NCBI GenBank assembly: GCA_030648495.1
Contig: JAUSHV010000033.1
Coordinates: 1 to 33,248, forward strand
DNA from: a bacterium
Lineage (GTDB): Bacteria > Patescibacteriota > Minisyncoccia > UBA11713 > 2-01-FULL-45-33
DNA: 33,248 nt
Reading direction: 5' to 3'
This document shows, piece by piece, positions 23,613 to 27,472 of the stretch (position 1 is its first letter; each line of letters opens with the position of its first letter). Below the pieces are notes generated by a model. That model searched no databases, was not told the origin of the DNA, and saw nothing but the letters and a program-made list of their open reading frames with translations. The translations under genes and the position numbers were made by a program.

Positions 23613-23687
23613 GCTCCTATCGTCTAGCCTGGCCTAGGACACCGGCTTTTCAAGCCGAGAACCCGGGTTCGAATCCCGGTGGGAGCA
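23613..23687 (+). tRNA. tRNA-Glu (anticodon TTC)
   Basis: GCTCCTA/TGGGAGC acceptor; loop TTTTCAA; T-arm CCGGG-TTCGAAT-CCCGG; no encoded CCA. Confidence 0.92.
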
Positions 23688-23799
23688 AACGCACAGTTAA
23701 AATTATAAAATAGAACGCTTGAACACGACGGGATGAGAACCGCGGGCCGCAGGCACCGAAGAGGTGCTGTAGGTTTCGAGCCGTAGCAACGGCGAGAGG
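23688..23799 (+). other. tRNA-associated structured element, copy A
   Basis: Shares 45-nt core (23737-23781) with copy B; hairpins GGCACC-GAAGA-GGTGCT and GCCGT-AGCA-ACGGC; bounded by tRNA-Glu 3' end copies 23670-23689 and 23800-23819. Confidence 0.75.
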
Positions 23800-23824: not shown

Positions 23825-24031
23825 ATGGAAATACCATCAAAAAAAGACCAAATTTCTTTTGAAGAATTGCAATCGTTTATAAATGATCCCGCCTTGGATT
23901 TACCCGAGCTAAGAAGAGATATGTCAAAAGAAGAAAATATCCGCTGGCTTGTGAGAAATATTTTAATTCAAAATGGCGATAAAGTATCAGAAGAGCATTA
24001 TAAGGCCCTGGGCGCTTTGCTTAAAAAATAA
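23825..24031 (+). CDS. Small hypothetical protein
   Basis: 68-aa ORF between tRNA genes. Confidence 0.55.
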   Translation: MEIPSKKDQISFEELQSFINDPALDLPELRRDMSKEENIRWLVRNILIQNGDKVSEEHYKALGALLKK

Positions 24032-27210: not shown

Positions 27211-27251
27211 GATGTGTAATACACCAGACTTTTAAAAACTATATAAAATGG

Positions 27252-27269
27252 TGCGCGATGTAGGGATTG
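27252..27269 (-). repeat. Direct repeat of tRNA-Val(TAC) 3' end
   Basis: TGCGCGATGTAGGGATTG (plus) identical to 27401-27418; flanking bases would give an ACCA tail. Confidence 0.95.
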
Positions 27270-27337
27270 CCTCTCACTTCTGTTGAAGCTCGAAACCTAC
27301 GGCGCCTCTTCGGCGCCTGCGGCCCGCGGTTCAATCC
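27270..27337 (-). other. tRNA-associated structured element, copy B (conserved part)
   Basis: Minus strand GGATTGAACCGCGGGCCGCAGGCGCCGAAGAGGCGCCGTAGGTTTCGAGCTTCAACAGAAGTGAGAGG; 42/45 core identity to copy A. Confidence 0.75.
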
Positions 27338-27351
27338 TCTAAACCAAACTC

Positions 27352-27398
27352 TTGGAAATAAAAAATACCTCCATAAATGGAAGTATTTTTATTTCCAA
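27352..27398 (-). terminator. Long inverted repeat, probable terminator of the tRNA-Phe/tRNA-Val unit
   Basis: TTGGAAATAAAAATACTTCCA-TTTA-TGGAGGTATTTTTTATTTCCAA (minus); the single base change is G-U on minus, C-A on plus. Confidence 0.6.
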
Positions 27399-27400
27399 TG

Positions 27401-27472
27401 TGCGCGATGTAGGGATTGAACCTACGACCTACCCGGTGTAAACGGGTCGCTCTGCCACTGAGCTAATCGCGC
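27401..27472 (-). tRNA. tRNA-Val (anticodon TAC)
   Basis: GCGCGAT/ATCGCGC acceptor; ACCCG-TTTACAC-CGGGT; T-arm GTAGG-TTCAATC-CCTAC; no encoded CCA. Confidence 0.94.

Follow-up and report, generated by a model that had tools for sequence, protein, structure and literature searches.

A putative small mobile element with a folded core at a fixed T-loop position of tRNA genes in Patescibacteria

Transfer RNA genes are classical docking sites of mobile DNA, and the guests that we know of in them are large and bring an integrase. Patescibacteria have tiny reduced genomes, for which, to our knowledge, few mobile-element mechanisms have been described. Here we analyze a short unit (copy B) lying beside a tRNA-Val(UAC) gene in the window, that is, in the whole stretch of 33,248 nucleotides from contig JAUSHV010000033.1 of an 824 kb Patescibacteria genome (designated G000), and compare it with further copies in this and other genomes, including two of the same genus (G001 and G002); individual loci are designated by L-numbers. 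T-loop-type elements mobilized by tyrosine integrases include mycobacteriophage Ms6 (PMC1762012) and the Dehalococcoides ssrA islands, which are inserted in the middle of the transfer-messenger RNA (tmRNA) T-loop and present a 20-bp repeat (PMC3146451). The unit described here is like these tRNA and tmRNA islands and phages in its position in the T-loop, in an incoming DNA that keeps the 3' end of the RNA gene, in the direct repeat of about 20 nt at the far end and in tandem accretion. The islands and phages, however, span kilobases, encode their own integrase and occupy one or few RNA genes, whereas the present unit measures about 150 bp, has no integrase, is found at many tRNAs and contains a folded core and an arm antisense to the T-arm. 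We file it as kin to tRNA-targeted mobile elements on the basis of its insertion and its 3'-end restoration, with no integrase and with the fold and the arm as new features. It is probably a small non-autonomous mobile element that enters tRNA genes in the T-loop, precisely at the T55|C56 step.

At the tRNA-Val locus, the original prediction described a tRNA followed by a terminator-like inverted repeat, a core and a perfect 18-nt repeat of the tRNA 3' end, joined as GAGAGG|C56; all these parts are present in the sequence, and the core end directly precedes the distal C56 (Table 1). Measured from the proximal C56 through GAGAGG, copy B spans 149 nt and contains no open reading frame (ORF). The probability of finding an exact 18-nt repeat within 200 positions by chance is about 3e-9, and a 28-nt core pattern matched once in the window and not at all in shuffled sequences. 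The tRNA is intact and followed by a direct repeat of its 3' part, as expected after the insertion of a tRNA-targeted integrative element. Two features had been missed: the core is a structured nucleic acid, folded and covarying, and the arm that precedes it is complementary to the tRNA T-arm. In copy B the first 6 nt of the distal copy pair with this arm (helix P1), and the terminator-like hairpin (H1) has the same dyad axis as the pair formed by T-arm and antisense arm. Copy A, reported beside tRNA-Glu, was likewise located with its arm, core and distal copy, and the two copies are 83% identical over 64 nt.

Table 1. Features of copies A and B in the window. Positions are those of the forward strand.
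Feature	Position	Strand	Remarks
tRNA-Val(UAC)	27400-27472	minus	intact, encodes no CCA; ARAGORN and Rfam
tRNA-Val 3' half from C56	27401-27418	minus	C56 at 27418, T55 at 27419
H1, A/T-rich bidirectional terminator-like hairpin immediately 3' of tRNA-Val	27352-27398	minus	from sequence
14-nt spacer	27338-27351	minus	from sequence; as long as the facing tRNA segment in the inverted repeat
Antisense arm GGATTGAACC, 10 nt	27328-27337	minus	exact complement of tRNA-Val G52-C61 (GGTTCAATCC)
Conserved core GCGGGCCGCA...GAGAGG, 58 nt	27270-27327	minus	helices P2, P3, P4
GAGAGG core end of copy B	27270-27275	minus	
Distal copy CAATCCCTACATCGCGCA of tRNA-Val 3' half C56-A73	27252-27269	minus	exact over 18 nt
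CCA right after distal copy	27249-27251	minus	from sequence
tRNA-Glu(UUC), host of copy A	23613-23687	plus	
Copy A arm GGGATGAGAACC	23730-23741	plus	without strong H1
Copy A core	23742-23799	plus	terminates in GAGAGG
Copy A distal copy of tRNA-Glu 3' half from C56	23800-23817	plus	exact

A search of the whole genome of G000, using copy B as query and a covariance model built from five copies, identified eight copies, located at tRNA-Val(UAC), Glu(UUC), Ile(GAU), Trp, Ser(CGA), Ser(GGA), Val(CAC) and Lys(UUU). An ORF lies between tRNA and element at Val(CAC), where it encodes 203 aa, and at Lys(UUU). A ninth locus, beside tRNA-Met (L126), is a relic in which most of the core is deleted (TGGATTTGAACCGCGGGCAAATCC), with the arm and the first part of the distal copy remaining; in a census of all 44 tRNAs found in this genome, the remaining tRNAs show no comparable copy. 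A degenerate pattern search of the same genome was uninformative. At the tRNA-Ser(GGA) locus of this genome (L005, on contig C30), an armless core sits in the T-loop of a truncated second tRNA-Ser copy, and the insertion looks directly T-loop-borne. Directly 3' of the copy A distal repeat lies an orphan ORF of 68 aa (window positions 23825-24031, plus strand) with no Pfam match.

The occurrence of the element is patchy at every level sampled. Within the genus, G002 carries six copies and G001 none anywhere in its genome; no copy was found in the seven other family members sampled. The element is present in 13 of 384 genomes of a class-wide sample and in a single genome, that of the window, among 380 of a phylum-wide sample. 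A pattern scan of GTDB contigs returned further copies, nearly all in Patescibacteria, and the host tRNAs across many genomes comprise Val, Glu, Ile, Trp, Ser, Lys, Gly, Tyr, Arg, Gln, Asn, Phe, Met and Thr. That a single core, with the junction GAGAGG|C56, lies beside so many tRNAs bears out the proposal of a dispersed family at one fixed T-loop position rather than a chance duplication. Searches of phage and plasmid collections with the element returned no match, in viral contigs the pattern matched by chance only and the covariance model rejected these matches, and no paper describing the element was found in the open-access literature. Comparison with related genomes, suggested in the original prediction, revealed an empty site: in G001 the tRNA-Val(UAC) gene directly adjoins apt, without hairpin, arm or core. 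The arrangement is thus not one that is always there by common descent, because G001 has this empty site and no copies. Likewise, G002 has units at tRNA-Tyr, Asp and Lys(CUU), all three of which are empty in G000, and among about 12 tRNA loci occupied in G000 and G002 together, the two genomes have only Val(UAC) and Lys(UUU) in common.

This distribution bears on the idea that the core is a resident RNA regulating or processing tRNA genes, retained because of its function and passed on chiefly by descent, with occasional transfer. The strong conservation of the fold across families fits that idea, as does the agreement of each distal copy with its own tRNA in G000 and G002, both of which have the Val(UAC) unit; the very patchy occurrence (13/384) with no fixed set of tRNAs, the usual position behind a terminator and the high turnover within the genus make it quite improbable. 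At the two tRNA-Val(UAC) loci concerned (L039 in G002 and L001 in G000), each distal copy matches its own, differing tRNA 3' end, as if by either concerted change or repeated insertion.

The core end GAGAGG (rarely GAGAAG or GAGGGG) lies directly before the C56 that opens a second 3' half of the tRNA just upstream, whichever tRNA this is, and this GAGAGG|tRNA 3' half junction recurs across many genomes. From the proximal to the distal C56, the distance clusters at 139-149 nt. Under the mobile-element explanation, the moved unit of about 140-150 bp would comprise the tRNA 3' half C56-A73, the terminator hairpin, the antisense arm and the 58-nt core down to GAGAGG, and what lies 3' of it would be the original 3' half of the tRNA. 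Since such a unit brings along a new 3' half and, in most cases, a terminator, insertion would leave the tRNA intact and be tolerated.

The original prediction also pointed out that the duplicated 3' end in copy B continues as CCA while tRNA-Val itself encodes none, and this is the case. It is not a general property of duplicated tails: among near-intact distal copies, 5 of 23 carry a CCA, although their tRNA now lacks it. A similar rate is found in the element-free tRNAs of G000, 7 of about 36 of which encode CCA. Two sources had been put forward, the capture of a CCA-bearing 3' end and a differently encoded ancestor; the second is favoured, and capture is disfavoured by the occurrence of CCA at the rate of element-free tRNAs and by the continuation of distal copies into the flank. 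The distal copy is the likelier original tRNA end, because 5 of the 23 have a CCA that the tRNA now lacks and because the empty tRNA-Tyr gene of G000 encodes CCA. At tRNA-Ile the distal copy runs 13 nt into the genomic flank, and the duplication therefore occurred at the DNA level. Copying from mature tRNA as the source of CCA is rejected, given that CCA is present in only 5 of 23 distal copies and that some distal copies extend into genomic flank.

Covariation in the core was assessed on an alignment of 31 standard copies, using a structure composed of P1 (arm and distal copy), P2, P3 and P4. Standard pairs were observed in 96.1% of cells, versus 79.0% in shuffled alignments and 38-46% in slid ones, and 125 cells had changed on both sides, versus 38 after shuffling. 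The covariation score was 0.49, compared to 0.16 for shuffles, with 0 of 500 shuffles reaching the observed value. P4 is 100% paired in all copies and contains conserved tandem G.A pairs, which P3 also has occasionally, and P1 is paired in 91.7% of cells. Single-sequence folds were about 2-2.8 standard deviations better than those of shuffled sequences. In P3 and P4 together there are nine G.T pairs and no A.C pairs, and it is therefore the tRNA-sense strand that folds; frequent and invariant G.U pairs favour RNA over DNA as the folding molecule, as an indication rather than as proof. Searches against Rfam, both at gathering and at permissive thresholds (E up to 10), gave only weak chance matches to the core. 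In the proposed mechanism, the tRNA-sense strand, as RNA or as single-stranded DNA, would adopt a three-way junction closed by the arm and the distal 3' half, and this fold, together with the arm, might be what the mobilizing machinery recognizes.

A folded core at an insertion point invites comparison with integron cassettes, whose attC sites have an R' box GTTRRRY, a crossover at G|TT and a variable core sequence. Likenesses comprise the small size of the units, a folded site with a 5' arm pairing with the sequence of the insertion point, the arrays and the occasional single small genes; unlike cassettes, the present unit sits at the tRNA T-loop, has a conserved core, lacks a G|TT crossover and is mostly gene-less. 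The unit could accordingly be an integron-cassette-like one, with an attC-like single-stranded DNA fold, the T-loop as insertion site, a tyrosine recombinase (the host Xer or an integrase since lost) and small genes as possible cargo. Insertion always at one base, an arm pairing with the boundary, tandem units (L041), small ORFs that end at the site in L006 and L035 and the presence of at least one tyrosine recombinase in every positive genome checked are all compatible with this scheme. It is nonetheless doubtful: the core is strongly conserved in sequence, the junction offers no G|TT crossover since T54T55 is absent after GAGAGG, most units have no gene, and G000 has a single tyrosine recombinase, the same as copy-free G001.

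The antisense arm is complementary to G52-C62 of the adjoining tRNA, and hence extends across T55|C56. It matches its own tRNA at a mean of 10.9 of 12 positions, versus 9.2 of 12 for the tRNAs of other copies, and this match was reached by 0 of 20000 shuffles over all copies and by 2 of 20000 within genomes. Pairing with the distal copy explains part of the match, but the distal copy does not contain G52-T55. At L050 the arm GGACC follows a tRNA with a GGTCC T-arm, and L085 is a counter-example to the arm following the 5' side of the T-arm. Under the mobile-element explanation, the arm, of about 11 nt across T55|C56, might help to choose the target T-arm.

Group I introns, in which an internal guide sequence pairs with the exons, resemble the unit, and resemblance is all that is meant, in having an arm complementary to both sides of the junction, a terminal G and a location in tRNA genes. 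They differ in that the present unit is far too small, has no Rfam match and leaves the tRNA complete without splicing. An intron-like or RNA-guided process may still be envisaged, in which the arm would serve as guide and splint by base-pairing to G52-T55 as well as to C56-C62; a read-through RNA might be cleaved at both T55|C56 and G|C56, or else the RNA might attack tRNA T-arms. Complementarity of the arm to both junction sides, including the G52-T55 segment that the distal copy lacks, is what such a process would need, and the GGACC/GGTCC match at L050, the G as last base of the element before the junction and the G.U pairs pointing to RNA agree with it; moreover, in the predicted fold of a copy B read-through RNA, the distal copy is paired to the 5' acceptor strand, and the T-arm to the arm. 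Yet at 58 nt the core falls far short of a group I catalytic core and has no match in Rfam, most positive genomes lack a reverse transcriptase, and the 5' side of the arm pairing is tested by one copy only, because AACC is nearly invariant as GGTT is, with L085 disagreeing. We consider this process unlikely. Slightly less so, but still speculative, is a new kind of minimal Patescibacteria mobile element transcribed as a structured RNA of about 70 nt, in which the arm, as guide or splint on the T-arm across T55|C56, would serve to select and enter tRNA genes; the RNA would either resemble a very small intron or guide an enzyme working in trans.

A purely mutational origin, in which template switching at the T-arm and the terminator hairpin would produce a direct-inverted-direct triplication with no mobile element, was also considered. 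In most copies with a 38-63 nt gap, the pair formed by T-arm and arm shares a dyad axis with the terminator hairpin, with a centre shift of at most 3.5 nt, and a spacing of 52-63 nt combined with the shared dyad is regular in most copies. At two tRNA-Arg(GCG) loci (L077 and L084), an unbroken inverted tRNA 3' half of 24 and 23 nt, respectively, precedes the core and the distal copy is short, reversing the usual pattern. Both the shared axis and the long inverted repeats are what template switching would leave behind, but the conserved, covarying 58-nt core common to several families is not explained by it, and we regard such an origin as very improbable.

A dedicated enzyme inside the element is excluded, and the enzyme mobilizing it would have to act in trans. 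Three families were surveyed: tyrosine recombinases (Phage_integrase), of which at least one is encoded in every positive genome checked; reverse transcriptases; and Y1 transposases, of which G000 encodes six and copy-free G001 five. None of them, taken as a common factor, separates carriers from non-carriers. G002 encodes two extra adjacent tyrosine recombinases (C14:158-2858; L154 and L155), seen in that genome only. In being short, structured, non-autonomous and multicopy, the unit is like hairpins of the repetitive extragenic palindromic (REP) and miniature inverted-repeat transposable element (MITE) types, such as REP with its Y1 transposase; unlike these, it is bound to one base of tRNA genes and carries a target copy of about 18 nt.

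Several observations weigh against a small mobile element. The one tyrosine recombinase of G000 lies on another contig (C60), and G001, with no copies, also has one; reverse transcriptase is absent from G000 and from 7 of 9 positive genomes; Y1 transposase is absent from two positives (G091 and G355). No mobilizing enzyme could be linked to the element in these families, serine recombinases, DDE and RNA-guided families not having been searched, and movement of the unit itself was not seen. In some copies H1 is missing or the distal copy is short or broken, and the exact limits of the moved DNA are therefore uncertain. H1-like hairpins also occur 3' of some element-free tRNAs, so that H1 is not established as an element-specific hairpin. 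Core identity is 0.83 within genomes versus 0.81 between them (136/5000) and independent of tRNA type; because cores group only weakly by genome, intragenomic spread is not strongly shown.

A gene-less guest of about 150 bp at many tRNAs, with a covarying fold and a target-complementary arm, would represent a different way into the safe harbour of tRNA genes. The system is small enough to be fully rebuilt in a test tube, and with empty and occupied sites close at hand, how it moves can be tested directly.

Unusual units were also recorded. At tRNA-Asp of G002 (L041) two units stand in tandem; in the first, the core (GGGATTTGAAGGGCGCC...AAAAAG) is unrelated, but the arm is the same and the 3' copy is full. 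Between tRNA and element, L006 contains an ORF of 203 aa (908-1519) that, compared with Pfam, gave only a weak 2H-phosphoesterase hint below cut-off, and L035 an ORF of about 130 aa on the reverse strand (about 1025-1429 of the reversed locus); both resemble cassette cargo. In the distal tRNA copies of L035, L042 and L043 an additional hairpin (CCCGCAACGCTTCGCG...GCGGG) interrupts the T-stem, as though the first element had itself received a second small one. The design of arm and 3' copy may be broader than the core family described here and define a larger superfamily. The same antisense arm and tRNA 3' copy surround other cores at L176 (tRNA-Tyr of G013), L171 (tRNA-Asn of G131), L053, L060, L052 and the first unit of L041, and among the matches listed, not all of which are elements, the pattern of an arm plus the start of a distal copy was found in 8 of 384 genomes versus 0 for the reversed control.
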